Below are positions 26,520 through 39,394 of a DNA stretch of 64,000 nt, in pieces; position 1 is the stretch's first letter, and each line of letters opens with the position of its first letter. This DNA is from Allosphingosinicella indica (GTDB lineage: Bacteria; Pseudomonadota; Alphaproteobacteria; Sphingomonadales; Sphingomonadaceae): assembly GCF_900177405.1 (NCBI RefSeq), contig NZ_LT840185.1, positions 186,001-250,000 on the forward strand, in the 5' to 3' direction. Made by a program: the position numbers and the translations under genes. The notes beneath the pieces are model-generated. The model was not told where the DNA came from, did not search any database, and was given only the letters and a program-made list of their open reading frames with translations.

Positions 26520-28859
26520 TCAGCTTGCGGCCGCCATCAGGTTCTGGCGTGCCTCTTCTCTCGCCCGATCGAGCCGCCGGAAGGTTGCCAGCGCCTGTCC
26601 CACGACTTGGTCCATATTGTAGTAGCGGTAAGTGGCAAGCCGCCCGACGAAGGAGACGTCGGGCGTCGCGTCCGCCAGCGCTTCGTATTTCTTGAATAGA
26701 ACCTGATTTTCGGGTCGGGGAATTGGATAGAAGGGGTCTCCGCCAGCGGCCGGATACTCGTAGGTCAGGCTGGTCGCAGGGTGCTGCTGGCCGGTGAGAT
26801 GCTTATATTCGGTGACGCGGGTGTACGGCACCGCCTCATCCGGATAGTTGATCACAGCCACCGGCTGAAATTGCTCGGCCTCTACCGTGCGGTGCTCGAA
26901 CCGCAAGCTGCGGTAGGGAAGCTTGCCGAACCGGTGATCGAAATATTCGTCGATCGGGCCGGTGTAGACGAGATGCGCGGCGTCGACAGTATCGCGCACG
27001 TCGCGCCAGTCGGTCCCCAGCGCGCGCTCGATATTGGGATGGTCGAGCATGCGCTCGAACATGGCGGTATAGCCGTCGGCCGGCATTATCTGATGCACAT
27101 CGCCGAAGTAGCGGTCGTCGGTCCCGGTCCGGGTGGGGATGCGAGCGGTAACCGCCCGGTCGAGCTCACTGGGATCCATGCCCCATTGCTTGCGCGTGTA
27201 GCCGCGAAAGAACATCTCATAGAGTTCCCGTCCGACCGCATTCACGACGACATCCTCGGACGTGCGTATGTCGTCGACGGGCTCGGAGCGCCCCGCAAGA
27301 TAGCGGGCGGCGTCCTCGTCGCTGCCGAGGGCGAGGTCAAACAGCCGGTTGAGCGTCGTGCGGTTGATGGGGATGGGCACCAGCATGCCCCGGACCTCGG
27401 CGAGCACCCGGTGCTCGTAAGATCGCCACTTAGTGAATTGCGACAGATAGGCGACGATTTCGTCCGAATTGGTATGGAAGATGTGCGGACCATATTGATG
27501 GATCAGCACGCCGGCGTCATCCAGCCGGTCATAGGCATTGCCGCCGACATGGTCGCGGCGGTCGATGATCAGCACCTTCGCATCGTGCTGGCTGGCAAGC
27601 CGCTCGGCAAGCACCGAACCCGCGAAGCCGGCACCGACGATGACATGGTCGTAACGCTTGCGCCGGCCGGTGTGGATGGCCGGGGCCGCCGGCGGCGCCA
27701 GCGACAGCGCGATCAGCGCGGACATCTCGGCATGGGTCCGGTCCCAACTCATGTCGGCAAGGTGCGCGTCGGCTTCCTCCAGCCAAGCGCCGCAGTCGCG
27801 TGTCAGTTCGAGCGCTTCCTCGCACGCCCCGACGAACGCATCCGGGCCGGCTGCGATTTTCACCGCTTCGAGCGAGCCGTAATGGCGAACGACATCGATG
27901 ACCGGTGTCGAAACCACCGGCTTCCCGCCGCTCAGATATTCGGGAGTCTTGGTCGGCGAAATGAAACGCGTCGACTCGTTCTGCGCGAACGGCATGAGCG
28001 CGACATCCCAGCCGGCGAGATAGCCTGGGAGCTCTTCATAGGATTTCCCGCCGAGGTAATGAATGTTCGGGCGGCGCGGCAGACTCTCCGCATCGATCTT
28101 GACCACGGGGCCGACCATGATGATCGACCAGTCCGGACGAGCGTCGGCAAGCGTGGCCAGAAGTTCCAGGTCCATGCGTTCGTCGATGACCCCGAAATAG
28201 CCGACGCGCGGCGTCGCAATCCCGGTCTGGTCCCCAGGCTGCACCTGTGGAGAACGAGCCTTTGCGAAATGCTCGCGATCGACGCTGGAGGGAAAGGGGT
28301 GGATGCTGGCGTGGCGATCCTTCTTGGCTTCGTAGAGACTGTAGCCCCCGGTGAAGACGATGTCCGCGCGCTCGAACAGTTCGGCTTCCAAGTGAAGGAG
28401 CGTCGGCGGCGCGAAGCGAAAGTTGGCGAGCTCGTCCATGCAATCATAGACGATGCCCAGTGCGTCCATGTCGCGGCTGAACGACAGCATCATCGGCGTA
28501 TAAAACCAGGCGAGAACCGGCTTGCTTTGCTGGGCAAGAAAGTCCGCCAGCAGGTGACGCAGCGCCGCGTCGCGGCCGTCCTCCGACAGCCCCTGCGGCA
28601 GCCCCGGCGTCACGACCCGCACGCCCGTCTCCGAACAATCGCGCACGACGAGATGCGGCGCATCCCCGGCCTTCCCCTCGAAAGGCTCCTCCCAATATAC
28701 GACCTGCCGTTCGCGCGCGAACCGGCTCATCAGATGCTGCGGCCGCTGGAACACGAAGTTCCAACGAAGGTGCGAGAAGCATAGCAGCATGCAGTCCGGC
28801 AATTGCGGAGCGCACGGCGCGGCGCCGCCGGCGGCGGCGGAATCGATTAGTTTAGCCAA
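26520..28859 (-). CDS. Fusion of glycosyltransferase and UDP-galactopyranose mutase
   Basis: A 779-residue two-domain protein. Residues about 24-395 form a GT-B-like glycosyltransferase (FSHLRWNFVFQRPQHLMSRF, TPRVGYFGVIDERMDLELL, FISPTKTPEYLSGGKPVVST). Residues about 400-770 form a complete flavin-dependent UDP-galactopyranose mutase (HVIVGAGFAGSVLAERLAS, QYGPHIFHTN, GYTRKQWGMDPSEL, YRYYNMDQVVGQAL). The mutase makes UDP-galactofuranose, so the fused transferase may use it directly. No stop or shift separates the halves. Translation could also begin at the Met near residue 24, just before the conserved region. Confidence 0.92.
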   Translation of the reverse strand: MAKLIDSAAAGGAAPCAPQLPDCMLLCFSHLRWNFVFQRPQHLMSRFARERQVVYWEEPFEGKAGDAPHLVVRDCSETGVRVVTPGLPQGLSEDGRDAALRHLLADFLAQQSKPVLAWFYTPMMLSFSRDMDALGIVYDCMDELANFRFAPPTLLHLEAELFERADIVFTGGYSLYEAKKDRHASIHPFPSSVDREHFAKARSPQVQPGDQTGIATPRVGYFGVIDERMDLELLATLADARPDWSIIMVGPVVKIDAESLPRRPNIHYLGGKSYEELPGYLAGWDVALMPFAQNESTRFISPTKTPEYLSGGKPVVSTPVIDVVRHYGSLEAVKIAAGPDAFVGACEEALELTRDCGAWLEEADAHLADMSWDRTHAEMSALIALSLAPPAAPAIHTGRRKRYDHVIVGAGFAGSVLAERLASQHDAKVLIIDRRDHVGGNAYDRLDDAGVLIHQYGPHIFHTNSDEIVAYLSQFTKWRSYEHRVLAEVRGMLVPIPINRTTLNRLFDLALGSDEDAARYLAGRSEPVDDIRTSEDVVVNAVGRELYEMFFRGYTRKQWGMDPSELDRAVTARIPTRTGTDDRYFGDVHQIMPADGYTAMFERMLDHPNIERALGTDWRDVRDTVDAAHLVYTGPIDEYFDHRFGKLPYRSLRFEHRTVEAEQFQPVAVINYPDEAVPYTRVTEYKHLTGQQHPATSLTYEYPAAGGDPFYPIPRPENQVLFKKYEALADATPDVSFVGRLATYRYYNMDQVVGQALATFRRLDRAREEARQNLMAAAS

Positions 28860-32981: not shown

Positions 32982-33911
32982 TCAACCGCCTTCGATCCTG
33001 ATGCCCAAAGCCGCGATGCGCTCGACATCGCGATATTCTTCGCGGTCGAGCTCTTCGCCGAAGATGTCCGGGTCGATTTCGCTCGCCTCCATCCGCCACT
33101 CCGGTCCCAATTCTCCCATGAGCCGGGCTGCGAGCAACACCTCGCCCTCCACGACGGGGCTTCCGCAATACACCAGGATCTGGCCGCCCGGCTTGACGAG
33201 GTGGGTCGCCGCGAGCGTCCAGCTTACGGCCAGATCCAATCCCCGGTCCTCGCCGCCGTCGCGATATTGGCGATGTTCGCCGTCCACCATGTAGGGCGGG
33301 TTCATGACGACGGCGTCATAGGTCTGGTCCGGCAAAGCCGTAAGGTCGGCCATTGTCGTTTCCGCGGCGATATTCGCAGCCCGGGCGTTATGCCCGGCCA
33401 TCCAGAGAGCCCTCGCGTTGATGTCCAGCAATGTCGCGCGCGCTGCCTTTCCGGCGCGCACGGCGCTGATTCCACCCGCGCCACTCCCGGCGCCGATGTC
33501 GAGAATATGTCCGTCCGAAGCGGGCAGTTCGCGCATAATGAAGGCAGCGAAGCGATACGTGTCAGGCCCGAAGAAAACGGCGTCCCGCTCCAGCGTCGGG
33601 AATGCAGAATGAACGAACAGCGCCCCGCCCAAGGACGACACGCGGATCAGCGGCCGAAGCCAGTGGCCTTGCGGCTCGATAAACGCGCCGCGCTCGAGGA
33701 GCGCCAGCAGATCAGCATCGATGTCGGCGGGCGAGAAGGGCAGCGACCACCCGAAGATATCGCGCAACGACCGAGCGCGCCGCCGATTTCGCTGCAGGTA
33801 CCGCTGATGCGTCGCCGGTGTCGGCGTGACGAAATTATAATCGAGAGCTACCAGCCGATCGAGCAATTCGGCAAGCACCTGATCCGCGGCAGCCGGAGGT
33901 CTCAGCTCCAT
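32982..33911 (-). CDS. Class I SAM-dependent methyltransferase with NPPY motif
   Basis: A 309-residue Rossmann-fold methyltransferase. SAM motif I is ILDIGAGSGAGGI near 153, motif II LLDINARAL, and the catalytic-type NPPY occurs in AVVMNPPYMVDGEHR. NPPY is typical of N-methyltransferases acting on planar amides or amines, such as HemK/PrmC and RlmG-like enzymes. The N-terminal 100 residues form a helical substrate domain. The ATG at 33911 lies inside the last codons of the diiron-enzyme gene, so both are co-translated. The target is unknown and may be a product of its partner. Confidence 0.85.
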   Translation of the reverse strand: MELRPPAAADQVLAELLDRLVALDYNFVTPTPATHQRYLQRNRRRARSLRDIFGWSLPFSPADIDADLLALLERGAFIEPQGHWLRPLIRVSSLGGALFVHSAFPTLERDAVFFGPDTYRFAAFIMRELPASDGHILDIGAGSGAGGISAVRAGKAARATLLDINARALWMAGHNARAANIAAETTMADLTALPDQTYDAVVMNPPYMVDGEHRQYRDGGEDRGLDLAVSWTLAATHLVKPGGQILVYCGSPVVEGEVLLAARLMGELGPEWRMEASEIDPDIFGEELDREEYRDVERIAALGIRIEGG

Positions 33912-34843
33912 AAATGCTGGCGATACCGCTCGAAGCAGCGTGCACCGCAATGCAGGCGGATCAACGCGCCCTCTGCGATCGCAAGCGCCCGATCGGGATC
34001 CTCGGCAACCAGCGGCTCGATGACTTCGGCGTTCCACGCCTCGCTGTGCTTGACGTCCAGCACCGCGTGAAGCTCGAAATAGTGCCGTTCCCGGCCCGTG
34101 AAGGCGAGCCGCCGCAAACCTTGCGCGACCTTGGCTGCACGACCCGGCGCGGTAAGCTCGATTGCGCCAAGGGCGCCGACCGCGTGAAAGGCGTGTCGCC
34201 GCGACGTCGCCATCGCCGTCATGGCATTCGCAAGACAGAGGCTTTCCCAGACGGTCGTGTCGATCTCGGGCGTCAGTGCGAGGCGTTCGACCAACGCATC
34301 CAGCATCGGCCCGTGCATTCCCTTGCGGTTGCCGCGGCCCATCTCATCCCAGTAATTGCGGGCAAGTTCCAGTTTGGGGCGGACCGGCATCTTGATCTGG
34401 GCGAGCGCCACGAGATCGTCGAAGCCTGCCTCGCCTGCCGCCTCCTGCGTCATGAACCAGCGAAATTGCTCGACATCGGCTTCGGTCGCCAGCCAATCGA
34501 ACAACGGATCTCCCTGGCCGGGGCCGTTGATCTCGAGTGCCTCGAACCAGCGGACGAACCCCGCAGGATCGCGCGGGACGCAAGCCGCTTCAGCGGCAAC
34601 TTCGACACGAAGCGCCTCCAAGAATTCTGCTTCTTCGCAGGCCATTGCCTGGTCACGCGCAAGAGCGCCTCGCCAGTCGTGGGCCGGAAATCCCGGTTCC
34701 AGCCGCATTCGGTTCCAGGCCGCCAGTCGGCGCTGCGGTGTGTCGGCCCGATAGTCGCCCAGCACAGGTGCGCTCGAGAATTTGAGTTGCGTCGCCAAAA
34801 TATGTTGTCCCCATCTGATGAGGGAGAGACGAGGGCGACGCAC
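33902..34843 (-). CDS. Haem-oxygenase-like diiron oxidase (iron-containing redox enzyme family)
   Basis: A 313-residue helical protein of the haem-oxygenase-like diiron family (CADD, UndA and SznF belong to it). Likely ligands are seen in WFMTQEAAGEAGFDDLVAL, ELARNYWDEMGRGNRKGMHG and HYFELHAVLDVKHSEAW, giving a full Glu/His/Asp set. Such enzymes cleave or hydroxylate amino acids, fatty acids or guanidines with O2. The listed start is a GTG at 34843; a TTG at 34798, preceded by GGGGA, is as likely. It is coupled to the methyltransferase gene and diverges from the ATP-grasp gene. Confidence 0.84.
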   Translation of the reverse strand: MRRPRLSLIRWGQHILATQLKFSSAPVLGDYRADTPQRRLAAWNRMRLEPGFPAHDWRGALARDQAMACEEAEFLEALRVEVAAEAACVPRDPAGFVRWFEALEINGPGQGDPLFDWLATEADVEQFRWFMTQEAAGEAGFDDLVALAQIKMPVRPKLELARNYWDEMGRGNRKGMHGPMLDALVERLALTPEIDTTVWESLCLANAMTAMATSRRHAFHAVGALGAIELTAPGRAAKVAQGLRRLAFTGRERHYFELHAVLDVKHSEAWNAEVIEPLVAEDPDRALAIAEGALIRLHCGARCFERYRQHLWS

Positions 34844-34928
34844 GCTTGTTCCGGCAGAATTGCCATACCTTTACATGCGTTATGCAAATAGTTCCGTGTC
34901 GAATCTCAGTGTCGCGCGTAATTGGCGG

Positions 34929-36221
34929 ATGCGATTTCTTGGTGTTTCGGAAACCTGCGACCTCGGCTCGCTCTATCTTCGGTTGATCGAGGAGGGGCAT
35001 GAAGTCCGCGTCTCGGTGAGCGAGCCGCTTGCCGATGGCACGATGCGCGGTCTGGTGCCCAGAACGGAAGATTGGCGCGCCGAGCTCGATTGGGTGCGCG
35101 CCGGCGGCCGAGGAAGCGCGATCCTGTTCGAAGCGGTGTCCGAAGGCTTGGGCGCGCTCGAGGACGATCTTCGCGCGCAGGGCTATAGCGTCATCGGCGG
35201 CAGCGCGTTCGGCGATCGTCTGGAGAATGACCGCGATTTCGCGTTCGGCCTGCTGGAAGAACTCGGTTTCGCAACCGCGCCCCAGCGGCGCTTCGACGAT
35301 GCCGCGGCGGGCCACGCCTACATCGCGGAGCGTCCGCATCGCTACGCGTTGAAGTTCCACGGAGCAGGTGACGGAAGTGCGCGCAACTTCGTCGGCGTGC
35401 GCGACGACGGAGCCGATGTCGCGGCGGTGCTGCGTGCGGCGCGTGGGGCATCGCTCCCGCCTTTCGTACTCATGGATTTTGTGGCGGGCGTCGAGATGGG
35501 CATCGGCGGCTATTTCAACGGCGCACGCTTTCTCCGGCCGACCTGTCTCGACTGGGAGCACAAGCGGTTCTTTCCCGGCGATCTGGGCGAACTGACCGGT
35601 GAGATGGGGACGATCGCCACCTATCGCTCCAATGGCGAATTCTTTCGCCAGACATTGGAGCGGATCGAGCCGGCGCTGCGCGCGCACGGGCATGTCGGCT
35701 ACGTCAATCTCAACACCATCGTGAACGAGAGCGGCATCTTCCCGCTCGAATTCACCTGTCGCTTCGGCTACCCCGGTTTCGCCGTCCTCGATCCTCTTCA
35801 GACCCGTGGTTGGGGGGATCTGTTCGCTCGCATGAGCGATCCGGAGAGCACCTATTTCGAAACAAGCGCAGATTTTTCGGCCGGCGTCGTCGTTACGACG
35901 CCGCCCTTTCCCTATTCGCGCAAGGAGGTCGAGGCTCCGGTCGGTCTCCCGGTCTGGATCGACAAGAAGCTGCACGCTGCGGATCGCGCACACATTCACT
36001 GGGGCGAGGTCGGGATGTCGCACGACATGATGGTCACGAGCGGCCTGTATGGCTGGTCCGCGGTCGTCACCGGCACGGGTCCGACTGTAGTTTCCGCCGC
36101 GTCCGCGGCCTATGAACATCTGGAGGCGCTGGCCATCTCGGACATGCGTTACCGCGAAGATATCGGCGATAAGCTGATCCGGAGCGATCTCGAACGCGTC
36201 CAGTCACTCGGCCTCATCTGA
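34929..36221 (+). CDS. PurD-like ATP-grasp ligase
   Basis: A 430-residue ATP-grasp protein related to phosphoribosylamine-glycine ligase. The N-terminus MRFLGVSETCDLGSLYLRLIEEGHEV is followed by ATP-grasp segments YALKFHGAGDGSARNFVG, FVLMDFVAGVEMGIGGYFNG and YVNLNTIVNESGIFPLEFTCRFGYPG, which includes the metal-binding Glu/Asn region. It is unlikely to be the housekeeping PurD, being diverged and placed in accessory DNA. I chose the ATG at 34929 since family similarity begins there; upstream codons are the divergent promoter. It probably joins two small molecules through an acyl phosphate. Confidence 0.82.
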   Translation: MRFLGVSETCDLGSLYLRLIEEGHEVRVSVSEPLADGTMRGLVPRTEDWRAELDWVRAGGRGSAILFEAVSEGLGALEDDLRAQGYSVIGGSAFGDRLENDRDFAFGLLEELGFATAPQRRFDDAAAGHAYIAERPHRYALKFHGAGDGSARNFVGVRDDGADVAAVLRAARGASLPPFVLMDFVAGVEMGIGGYFNGARFLRPTCLDWEHKRFFPGDLGELTGEMGTIATYRSNGEFFRQTLERIEPALRAHGHVGYVNLNTIVNESGIFPLEFTCRFGYPGFAVLDPLQTRGWGDLFARMSDPESTYFETSADFSAGVVVTTPPFPYSRKEVEAPVGLPVWIDKKLHAADRAHIHWGEVGMSHDMMVTSGLYGWSAVVTGTGPTVVSAASAAYEHLEALAISDMRYREDIGDKLIRSDLERVQSLGLI

Positions 36222-36614
36222 TCAGCTGGGGAAGATAGGAGCACCATCCGCGAACGTATCGCAAATCGTTCGATAGTCGGAGGTCAGCTCCTCGCCAGCC
36301 CGAAGGTCCCGCGCCGCCACGTCGTCCCCGAAGGCGATGCCTTTGGACAGCGTATTGGGCGTTTCCGAATGATTGAAATGGCGTCCATTGTCTCCGCACA
36401 GCACCCAGAGGCGCGTAGCCGCGTGCAATGTCGAATAGGTTCTCAGAAAGCTTCCCAAGCCTTCCGGCAACTGCGCCAACTCGTAGTCTGCGTACACGCG
36501 ATCGATTCTGCTATCGAACTGCCACACGAGCTGGCCCGCCCTCACCGGCTCCAGAAGAAAAACTCCTATTCCGTGAATGACGCTTGGCCGCAATTCGGTA
36601 GCCACGGTGAGCAT
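36222..36614 (-). CDS. SET-domain protein (putative lysine methyltransferase)
   Basis: A 130-residue protein consisting of a minimal SET domain. SVIHGIGVFLLEPVRAGQLVWQF is the N-terminal SET strand, GDNGRHFNHSETPN holds the knotted NHS motif, and AGEELTSDY ends with the catalytic Tyr. It lacks extra pre- or post-SET domains. Bacterial SET proteins can methylate proteins, but many targets are unknown. The ATG at 36614 has AAGGAG 8 bases upstream; a TTG two codons earlier is less likely. It abuts the ATP-grasp stop, tail to tail. Confidence 0.87.
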   Translation of the reverse strand: MLTVATELRPSVIHGIGVFLLEPVRAGQLVWQFDSRIDRVYADYELAQLPEGLGSFLRTYSTLHAATRLWVLCGDNGRHFNHSETPNTLSKGIAFGDDVAARDLRAGEELTSDYRTICDTFADGAPIFPS

Positions 36615-36852: not shown

Positions 36853-37024
36853 CGGGCGCCTCGTCCGGGGCCGGATTAATCGGCCCAAGGTCGTCATCGA
36901 AATCCTCCCCCGGGTTGCCGCCGCCAGCGCCAGAGCCGCTACCGTGGACCTCCCCATTCGGTTCGATCCACGGCTTCCGGCCGCGCTCCTGCGCTTCGGG
37001 CGATTTACGGCCGTCTGCAATCAT
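36842..37024 (-). CDS. Small acidic Gly-rich protein coupled to hemerythrin gene
   Basis: A 60-residue hydrophilic protein (GRKPWIEPNGEVHGSGSGAG, then NPGEDFDDDLGP) with no predicted fold. Its ATG overlaps the hemerythrin stop (ATGA), so it should be translated with that gene and fall under the same EcfG promoter. The HGSG element also occurs in the protein at 32762-32974. The family is unnamed to me; similar proteins occur as stress genes in sphingomonads, which I recall but cannot verify. Confidence 0.62.
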   Translation of the reverse strand: MIADGRKSPEAQERGRKPWIEPNGEVHGSGSGAGGGNPGEDFDDDLGPINPAPDEAPDAR

Positions 37025-37608
37025 GCGACCTTGAAGCCTTCAAGGTTAATGGTCCGGGTCAGCTCCCGATTGCGCTCGTTTCCTAGCTGTGCGCGCAATT
37101 GGGGAAACAGCTTCTCTTCCTCCTCGCGCATATGATCCTCGATGTCGGCGCGGAAGCGCCGGACGGTCTCGAGAAACTTCGGTGAATTCGCCGGCGTGTT
37201 CGACAGCTCAAACAGGAATTGCTTCACATATCCATGCTCGCGATTCAGCTCGTCGGCCTCTTCCGAACGGCCGCTCTCCCGAAGCGCCGGATAGATCACA
37301 TTTTCCTCTTCGATCGCATGTTTGGTCAGCGCATATTTGAGCTTGGCCAGCAACGCCGTCCGCTTGATCTTAGCATCATCGCCGCTTTCCTCGAGCGCGT
37401 CGAAAATTGCGCGGACCGCGTCATGCTCTGCCTTGAGGGCCTCGTCCCATTCTCCGGCAAAGTAGCTAGGCGCCTGCGCCGCGCCCTTCCGCGCCACCAC
37501 GGCTGCGATGCCGGCCGCGGCGCCTGCGGCCAATGCACCGAGGAGAAAGCTCGTCTTGTTGTCGGAAACGCGCGCCGAATTGCTCCGCGAACGGGTAGTT
37601 GTCGCCAT
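37021..37608 (-). CDS. Hemerythrin-like protein with N-terminal membrane segment
   Basis: A 195-residue protein. Residues about 20-42 are a Gly/Ala-rich hydrophobic segment, probably a membrane anchor. The four-helix hemerythrin domain supplies the diiron ligands: LKAEHDAVRAIFDAL, LTKHAIEEENVIYPAL, LNREHGYVKQFLFEL and IEDHMREEEEKLFPQL. Such domains bind O2 or NO or handle iron. GGGAG lies about 6 bases before the ATG. A perfect EcfG promoter lies 30 bases upstream, so general-stress expression is likely. Confidence 0.9.
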   Translation of the reverse strand: MATTTRSRSNSARVSDNKTSFLLGALAAGAAAGIAAVVARKGAAQAPSYFAGEWDEALKAEHDAVRAIFDALEESGDDAKIKRTALLAKLKYALTKHAIEEENVIYPALRESGRSEEADELNREHGYVKQFLFELSNTPANSPKFLETVRRFRADIEDHMREEEEKLFPQLRAQLGNERNRELTRTINLEGFKVA

Positions 37609-37637: not shown

Positions 37638-37663
37638 AACGCCACGACTGCTTCGGCCGTTCC
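37638..37663 (-). promoter_or_regulatory. Perfect EcfG promoter of the hemerythrin operon
   Basis: The minus strand reads GGAAC (37663-37659), exactly 17 bases, then CGTT (37641-37638), the full consensus for the alphaproteobacterial general-stress sigma factor EcfG. The hemerythrin ATG is 30 bases downstream of the -10, leaving room for a short leader with its ribosome site. Confidence 0.75.
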
Positions 37664-37862: not shown

Positions 37863-39071
37863 CTATCCCGGCGGTGAAGCGCTCGCGTCATCGTCCCGGA
37901 CATCGTCGAGATAGTCGCTCCACCACTGGTGCATGGAGACGCGCTCGTCCCAATACGACCCACGATTATAGATACCTCGCACGGCATTGGCGTCGGCATG
38001 AGCCAGCGAACGTTCGATCGCATCCGCGCTCCACCGGCCGCTCTCGTTGAGCAGCGTCGACGCAGTCGTGCGCAGACCGTGCGCCGTCACCACGCCCTTC
38101 GCGAACCCCATTCGTCGAAATGCCTGGTTGATCGTGTTCTCGCACTGCGGCTTTCGAGACGAGTGATAAGCTGGGAAGGCAAAGCCCGCCTCCCCGGTCA
38201 GCTGACGAAGTTCGTCGAGGCGCGCCAGAACCTGCCGCGAGAGCGGTACGGCATGTGGTCTGCGCATCTTCATCCGTTCCTGCGGGATCTTCCAGACTGC
38301 TGCCTCCAGGTCGAATTCGCGCCATTGCGCGAAGCGCAATTCGCCAGGCCGCGACATGACATGCGGCAATATCTGCATGGCGAGTCGCGTGACCGGACTT
38401 CCGCCGTATCTGTCCACTTCGCGAAGCAGCGCACCAAGCACTACAGGATCGACGATTGCAGCGTGATGGCATGCCTTCGGAGCCGTCAAGGCCCCCCGCA
38501 GCACAGATGTCGGATCGGTTTCGCCTCGACCCGTTGCAACAGCATATCTGAAAACCCGGCTGGCAAAGGACCGGCAACGCGCCGCCGTTTCGTGCCGACC
38601 CGACGCATCGATGCGCTTCAATGCGGCTAGCACTTCAACGGGTTTGAGATCGGCAATGGCGCAATTCGCTAGCGGCGACAGCTGTTCCAGGAGCCAGTTC
38701 GCTTTGCAGATCGTGGCGACCGCCCGACCTTCGGCAACGGTCTTGTCGATATATTCCGTCGCGACCTCGCCGAAGGTATTCGCTGCATTGAACTTGGCGA
38801 CCAGCTTTGCGTGGCGCCGTTCGGTCACTGGGTCTCCACCCTCCCACACCTTTCGTCGAACCTCGTCGCGAAGACGGCGCGCTTCCGACAGTCCCACCTC
38901 CGGATAGCGTCCAAGGGCAATGCGCTTATCCTTGTCGTGCTGGCGATACTTGAAGCGCCACAGCTTCGACCCGCTCGGATGTATCTCTAGGAAGAGCCCA
39001 TTCGCATCTGCTCGCTTATAGACGCGCGCCTGCGGCCGAAGTGCTCGTATCTCGATATCTCTTAGGGCCAT
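37863..39071 (-). CDS. P4-type tyrosine integrase of the integrative element
   Basis: A 402-residue site-specific recombinase. The N-terminal DUF4102 arm-binding domain includes LRPQARVYKRADANGLFLEIHPSGSK and ALGRYPEVGLSEAR. The catalytic domain has Arg in SRPGELRFAQW near 240, HGLRTTAST near 329 and the nucleophile Tyr in VRGIYNRGSYW near 366, followed by MHQWWSDYLDDV. All catalytic residues are intact. It reads away from the adjacent tRNA-Leu gene, 240 bases away, the usual arrangement for elements inserted at a tRNA 3' end. Confidence 0.95.
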   Translation of the reverse strand: MALRDIEIRALRPQARVYKRADANGLFLEIHPSGSKLWRFKYRQHDKDKRIALGRYPEVGLSEARRLRDEVRRKVWEGGDPVTERRHAKLVAKFNAANTFGEVATEYIDKTVAEGRAVATICKANWLLEQLSPLANCAIADLKPVEVLAALKRIDASGRHETAARCRSFASRVFRYAVATGRGETDPTSVLRGALTAPKACHHAAIVDPVVLGALLREVDRYGGSPVTRLAMQILPHVMSRPGELRFAQWREFDLEAAVWKIPQERMKMRRPHAVPLSRQVLARLDELRQLTGEAGFAFPAYHSSRKPQCENTINQAFRRMGFAKGVVTAHGLRTTASTLLNESGRWSADAIERSLAHADANAVRGIYNRGSYWDERVSMHQWWSDYLDDVRDDDASASPPG

Positions 39072-39136
39072 CGCCTTCCCTTCCTAGCAAAGCGAGCTGG
39101 CCATTCAGATGAATCGGCCTGAACTCGCGAGCCCTT

Positions 39137-39162
39137 GGATCGATGCGTATGGGCATCGATCC
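39137..39162. repeat. 10-base perfect inverted repeat upstream of integrase
   Basis: GGATCGATGC (39137-39146) and its exact complement GCATCGATCC (39153-39162) flank a 6-base spacer. It lies between the integrase start and the tRNA gene, next to three iterons. A role as operator or recombination-directionality site is inference. Confidence 0.65.
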
Positions 39163-39164
39163 CA

Positions 39165-39196
39165 TGGCCCCATTTATGGCCCCATCGGTGGCCCCA
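39165..39196. repeat. Three iterons with 12-base period between integrase and tRNA-Leu
   Basis: TGGCCCCA occurs at 39165-39172, 39177-39184 and 39189-39196, each followed by four variable bases, so the period is exactly 12. Evenly spaced direct repeats beside a tyrosine integrase are typical of arm-type binding sites; spacing near one helical turn fits binding to one DNA face. Confidence 0.65.
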
Positions 39197-39309
39197 CTTT
39201 CCTCCAGATGATCTAGAACGAAATGAGACCGATTGGGACAGCACAAGCTAGAAAGTGGCAGATTTCTGCCGTTTTGTCGATCGATATGAGATGTCATGAA
39301 AAGAACAAA

Positions 39310-39394
39310 TGGTGCCCCTGGTCGGACTCGAACCGACACTCCTTGCGGAACTCGATTTTGAGTCGAGCGCGTCTACCAATTCCACCACAGGGGC
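39310..39394 (-). tRNA. tRNA-Leu (anticodon CAA), probable attachment site
   Basis: An 85-base tRNA on the minus strand. Acceptor GCCCCTG (39394-39388) pairs with CAGGGGC (39320-39314), followed by A and an encoded CCA. The anticodon stem CTCGA/TCGAG holds the loop CTCAAAA, giving anticodon CAA for Leu. The long variable arm and GGTTCGAGTCC T-arm are class II Leu features. Its 3' end faces the integrase gene, so the last bases are the likely att core. I found no second copy of that 3' end in the window, so the other att lies outside. Confidence 0.95.

Follow-up and report, generated by a model that had tools for sequence, protein, structure and literature searches.

Haem-oxygenase-like dimetal oxidases (HDOs) make rare functional groups, including nitro, alkyne, azetidine and nitrile groups. 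About a dozen HDOs only have been functionally validated (PMC13108848), and clusters combining an HDO with an ATP-grasp enzyme are a recognised class, of which at least 25 cluster types have been counted (PMC13185094). Here we describe four neighbouring open reading frames (ORFs), named MT, HO, AG and SET, at positions 32982-36614 of a 64,000-nucleotide stretch (the window) of the complete, 2.8-Mb genome of Allosphingosinicella indica (contig NZ_LT840185.1), whose sampled relatives belong to the Sphingomonadaceae. HO is the putative HDO, with METHYLTRANSFERASES and the ligase of the cassette being MT, SET and AG.

Among the closest described systems, the mangotoxin pathway (MboA-F) resembles this locus in joining an HDO to ATP-grasp amino-acid ligases and a guanidine hydrolase to yield a small modified peptide, but it uses a dedicated reductase (MboB), no methyltransferase is named for it, it contains no SET protein, and in its description the ligases go under the name of ATP-grasp amino-acid ligases rather than PurD-like ones (PMC13185094). 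No Fe2S2/flavin reductase of the MboB type was found among the Pfam-searched ORFs of the 29-39 kb stretch of the window. In streptozotocin biosynthesis, SznE and SznF combine N-methylation with HDO N-oxygenation on one amino acid, whereas HO is closer to HrmI than to SznF. SznF also has a cupin domain, and the streptozotocin system is not known to include an ATP-grasp or a SET protein. HrmI and BelK, the lysine N6-oxygenases of hormaomycin and belactosin, show the same E, E-x9-H, H-x3-D-x2-H pattern as HO, and HrmI is its best match by both sequence and fold, but at only ~28% identity. As far as we know, these enzymes come from Streptomyces pathways with neither a PurD-like ligase nor a SET protein. 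The asparagine N-methyltransferases AerE and PoyE, which N-methylate a planar amide, include the best structural match of MT (AerE, from a low-confidence model), but their substrates are ribosomal peptides and their identity to MT is ~18%.

No paper in the literature collection searched joins an HDO, an ATP-grasp enzyme, a methyltransferase and a SET protein. The composition of the cassette and its link to stress look new, though the cassette may already be among the counted HDO and ATP-grasp cluster types. The first-pass annotation of this DNA had put the locus forward as its best candidate for an undescribed system, but the HDO and ATP-grasp class was already recognised (PMC13185094).

RESULTS

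The four genes form a conserved cassette and are not chance neighbours, since many genomes have the whole arrangement or portions of it. All four, with SET of either of two subtypes, were found together in the window and at loci L038, L088, L128, L172 and L173, so the neighbourhood is conserved. The exact order of the window (MT-HO / AG / SET) was present in a Sphingomonas metagenome-assembled genome (MAG; L038) and on the Sphingomonas daechungensis plasmid NZ_CP060781.1 (L128). The genes formed a one-strand operon, AG-MT-HO-SET, at L172, and AG-SET-HO plus MT at L173. HO, MT and AG occurred together in Gemmatimonadaceae (L039) and at L174 (HO-AG plus MT), L089 was a further locus with the combination, and in the Comamonadaceae Variovorax (L040) and Polaromonas (L056) a longer HO-like protein followed AG. 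Joint recurrence of HO, MT and AG, in varied gene orders, extended over several alphaproteobacterial families, Gemmatimonadota and, with the longer HO-like protein, Comamonadaceae, SET being added in alphaproteobacteria. At other loci AG/SET or HO/MT formed tight pairs, and seven Acetobacteraceae/Roseomonadaceae genomes carried an MT-HO tandem with AG elsewhere in the genome. On the S. daechungensis plasmid record (L128, 8065-10256), HO and AG are both frame-shifted, to which sequencing error or decay may apply. In most Roseomonas-type genomes (L041-L050, L129), a convergent aminotransferase gene (PRK07550-like) follows AG and is a possible further pathway enzyme.

Co-occurrence was assessed in 249 genomes of the window's family, without phylogenetic correction of the P values. 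HO was present in 38 genomes and MT in 27, and 23 genomes carried both (P = 1e-18). AG orthologues were found in 4 genomes, the same 4 that carried close SET orthologues (P = 6e-9), and SET adjoined AG in each of them. One genome scan yielded 24 further AG loci, and AG was found in three more alphaproteobacterial families.

MT starts at an ATG (33911) within the final codons of HO (stop at 33902), a 10-bp overlap that is expected for translational coupling. TTG 34798 is the probable and GTG 34765 a possible start of HO, placing the divergent HO and AG genes ~130 or 163 bp apart, respectively. AG and SET are convergent and their stop codons abut (36221/36222). The first-pass annotation had described this layout correctly, from co-translation of MT with HO (in keeping with the overlap) to divergence of that pair from AG and the abutting SET gene. 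It had also named the four families, and Pfam and NCBIfam profile searches confirmed the placement of all four ORFs (Table 1).

HO matched PF14518 (Haem_oxygenas_2; 9.1e-41, 140 bits) in Pfam, and its nearest solved relative by sequence was HrmI (E = 1.8e-29). The predicted metal ligands, E108, E141, H151, H233, D237 and H240, aligned with those of HrmI, and across 54 orthologues the conservation of each was 97% or higher; with the spacing E108, E141-x9-H151, H233-x3-D237-x2-H240 they make up the three-His/three-carboxylate set of the HDO fold. E203, located 30 residues N-terminal of H233, was as highly conserved as the six ligands. It may correspond to an additional glutamate in SznF, but HrmI, which is described as a three-His/three-carboxylate enzyme, has a glutamate at this position too. 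The reaction of HrmI is oxidation of lysine at its side-chain amine (PMC13108848). AlphaFold2 (AF2) models of HO and MT were built from three sequences each, and with the HO model (predicted local distance difference test [pLDDT], 61) Foldseek returned HrmI as the top PDB match (1.4e-8), followed by RohS, CADD and BesC. HO is accordingly classed here as a predicted HDO of the HrmI type, an assignment in which the ligands are placed mainly from sequence and the model is of low confidence. The metal-ligand residues that the first-pass annotation had singled out for checking are in place, whereas its comparators, SznF and CADD, give way to HrmI as the closest characterised oxidase.

MT matched the MTS family (PF05175; 2.2e-14, Pfam) and carries its NPPY motif as N204-P-P-Y207. 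The best match of its model (pLDDT, 65) was AerE (1.7e-11), followed by a gentamicin methyltransferase and RsmC. Assignment of MT as the release-factor methyltransferase PrmC was rejected, as its TIGR03534 score (58 bits) was far below the cut-off (199 bits).

SET scored 30.4 bits against PF00856 (cut-off, 22.4; Pfam) and has kept the signature motifs N81-H82-S83 and E109-L110-T111-x-D-Y114. Two SET subtypes adjoin AG. Sphingomonads have the subtype of the window, whereas Methylobacteriaceae MAGs and a further two alphaproteobacterial families have another, which suggests that the SET step is required by the pathway and that at least one replacement of the gene has taken place. One sphingomonad (L090, 10418-10912) has two different SET genes in tandem after AG.

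AG matched GARS_A (2.8e-8, Pfam) and has the ATP-grasp plus C-domain fold of PurD (phosphoribosylamine-glycine ligase), but it scored only 79 bits against TIGR00877, for which the PurD cut-off is 288, and a separate, true PurD (515 bits) is encoded elsewhere in the genome. In a tree, 31 AG rows split from 5 PurD rows with support of 100/100. Identification of AG as PurD was rejected on these three grounds, and AG is a monophyletic ligase family distinct from PurD, with PurD-type small-molecule ligases as its nearest relatives.

Table 1. Features of the MT-HO/AG/SET locus (positions in the window)
Feature	Position	Strand	Basis
MT, predicted class I S-adenosylmethionine-dependent N-methyltransferase, NPPY, own N-terminal domain, 309 aa	32982..33911	-	PF05175, motif, AF2
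HO, predicted haem-oxygenase-like dimetal oxidase, HrmI-like	33902..34798	-	PF14518, ligands, HrmI match, Foldseek
Putative EcfG-type promoter 5' of HO	34828..34852	-	GGAAC-N16-CGTC, one -10 box mismatch
AG, predicted PurD-like ATP-grasp ligase, not PurD, 430 aa	34929..36221	+	TIGR00877 score, tree
SET, predicted small SET-domain methyltransferase, 130 aa	36222..36614	-	PF00856, motifs, adjacency to AG

The motif GGAAC-N15-17-[CGA]GTT was found upstream of HO in 21 of 56 orthologues, compared to 15 of 699 control genes (P = 9e-17, kinship again ignored). Of the HO genes heading a transcription unit, 22 of 47 carried the strict motif, versus 0 of 13 operon-internal HO genes. Since the GGAAC box by itself also occurred in 8 of these 13, it was left out of the evidence. 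Published work gives the EcfG consensus as GGAAC-N16-CGTT and describes the -10 box as flexible (PMC7083833). Membership of the EcfG regulon, for which GGAAC-N16/17-CGTT is the expected promoter, may extend to the window copy, which has CGTC. The window copy lies 87 nt 5' of the aligned HO start (GTG 34765), and those of the orthologues lie at 83-123 nt. In many Alphaproteobacteria, transcription of HO probably depends on EcfG, the sigma factor of the general stress response, which makes a stress metabolite more likely as the product than a constitutive one. In Sphingomonas melonis, of the same family, a methyltransferase gene and the TIGR03440 gene beside it are among the leading targets of EcfG (PMC6599016). 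A PhyR-type protein is encoded in the window genome. We take the S. melonis pair to be ergothioneine-type genes.

HO and MT were also found with other partners. An ATP-grasp-like gene (assigned from weak matches) adjoins HO-MT in Komagataeibacter and Variovorax. Complete cyanophycin operons adjoin MT in three genomes, and on a Sphingobium yanoikuyae plasmid such an operon is accompanied by MT, HO and a dicarboxylate symporter; cyanophycin synthetase was present in only 9 of the 249 family genomes. A domain resembling dimethylarginine dimethylaminohydrolase (DDAH) or arginine deiminase (ADI) is fused to MT on a Legionella plasmid, and in four sphingomonads a protein of this kind is encoded next to HO or MT. 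Its gene was present in 7 of the 249 genomes, 6 of which carried HO and none AG, and was not detected in the window's own genome. These partners point to an amino-acid substrate, with arginine favoured, and are not proof of it.

DISCUSSION

We propose that MT, HO, AG and SET are the enzymes of a single small biosynthetic pathway that is horizontally mobile and probably stress induced, and we consider this reading more likely than not. AG would join an amino acid, or an amino-acid-like carboxylate, to an amine in an ATP-driven reaction to give an amide; MT, like other NPPY enzymes, would place a methyl group on the planar nitrogen of an amide or guanidine; HO would carry out the O2-dependent oxidation of an HrmI-type dimetal oxidase, most likely at a side-chain nitrogen; and SET would add methyl groups to an amine, probably a lysine-like one. 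HO-MT would form the core, to which AG-SET would be one attachment for ligation or tailoring among several, the alternatives being the ATP-grasp-like gene, the cyanophycin operon and the DDAH-like hydrolase. The gene families, the ligand residues, the co-occurrence and adjacency, the mobility and the enrichment of stress-promoter motifs are observed; we infer substrate, step order, N-oxidation and product, taking the chemistry from family membership. Our leading, unproven guess for the substrate is a basic amino acid and especially arginine. The small-molecule pathway of the first-pass annotation gains support from the conserved neighbourhood and the ligands, its product being the part still to be called putative. 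A fuller version, with a stress-regulated mobile pathway that pairs an oxidase of the HrmI kind and an N-methyltransferase resembling AerE with interchangeable ligases (PurD-like, ATP-grasp-like or cyanophycin synthetase) and with SET tailoring a small molecule or short peptide, is tentative and would not be our first expectation.

A link to the stress response, if true, would suggest that an undescribed protective or signalling metabolite is made by environmental bacteria. SET-domain enzymes are normally associated with protein methylation, and action of SET on a small molecule, if true, would be unusual. The cassette is compact (one HDO, a ligase and two methyltransferases) and should be easy to reconstitute in vitro.

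Several observations weigh against a single pathway. AG and SET are rare in the family (4 of 249 genomes), MT is missing from 15 of the 38 genomes that have HO, HO and MT are unlinked in many genomes, and in haloarchaea and two Methylobacteriaceae MAGs neither HO nor MT was detected alongside AG. The window's promoter copy departs from CGTT, the structure models of HO and MT are weak, and shared ancestry is ignored in both the motif and the co-occurrence statistics.

Of the alternatives, the one that survives best is a version built on arginine, which we regard as unlikely in this specific form. MT would methylate the guanidine and HO would N-hydroxylate it, as in SznE/SznF, AG would couple the product to another amino acid, and at related loci DDAH-like enzymes would take off the modified guanidine nitrogen. 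The DDAH/ADI-like domains fused to MT in Legionella or encoded beside HO or MT in sphingomonads, the cyanophycin (Asp-Arg polymer) operons adjoining MT, the N-oxygenase activity of the HDOs SznF and RohS, and the union of an HDO, ATP-grasp ligases and a guanidine hydrolase in the mangotoxin pathway (PMC13185094) are all in keeping with it. However, HrmI, the closest characterised relative of HO, acts on lysine, the window genome yielded no DDAH-like gene, and MT resembles an amide N-methyltransferase more, albeit in a weak model.

It is less likely again that HO-MT serves stress-induced turnover or detoxification of odd amino acids or dipeptides (e.g., beta-Asp-Arg from cyanophycin), with AG-SET a separate system. 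Such a role would suit the EcfG-type promoters on HO, the cyanophycinase, isoaspartyl peptidase and dicarboxylate symporter genes that adjoin MT-HO, and the fact that most HO and MT genes in Sphingomonadaceae are unlinked to a ligase. It fits poorly with the recurrence of different kinds of ligase next to HO-MT and with the packing of AG, HO, MT and SET into single loci in several lineages, and a methyltransferase with an oxygenase would be unusual for amino-acid salvage.

Modification of a protein or ribosomal peptide, methylated by SET and MT and extended with an amino acid by AG, appears improbable: protein lysines are the usual SET targets and AerE-like methyltransferases act on ribosomal peptides, but no consistent neighbouring short precursor ORF was noticed (no systematic search was made), and AG is closest to PurD-type small-molecule ligases. 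That unrelated genes were gathered by chance on a mobile, stress-gene-rich island, as the adjoining integrase and tRNA-Leu and the surrounding catalase, DUF892 and hemerythrin genes might suggest, is very improbable and already disfavoured by the reappearance of these families, variously arranged, in different classes and phyla, by the overlapping genes and by the lack of an att repeat in the window.

GENES SURROUNDING THE CASSETTE

A tyrosine integrase gene (37863-39071) lies beside tRNA-Leu(caa) in a region (37863-39394) of locally lower GC content; within the window, neither an att duplication nor a direct repeat of the end of the tRNA was found. A hemerythrin-domain gene (37021-37608, minus strand) is preceded, ~55 nt upstream, by a perfect EcfG promoter match, GGAAC-N17-CGTT, starting at 37663 on the same strand. 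Mn catalase, DUF892, DUF6894 and Crp/Fnr genes are located on the side of the cassette opposite the hemerythrin gene, and genes for DUF892, an Fnr-type regulator, hemerythrin and Mn catalase were again found beside AG, MT or HO at L172 (2013-2552), L168 (5308-6231), L121 and L110. A long fused protein is encoded at 26520-28859, its halves resembling, by eye, a glycosyltransferase and a UDP-galactopyranose mutase. The wider stress region around the cassette may travel together, since the window shares this fused protein with L037 (8610-10988) and L110, two loci that carry AG-SET or MT.

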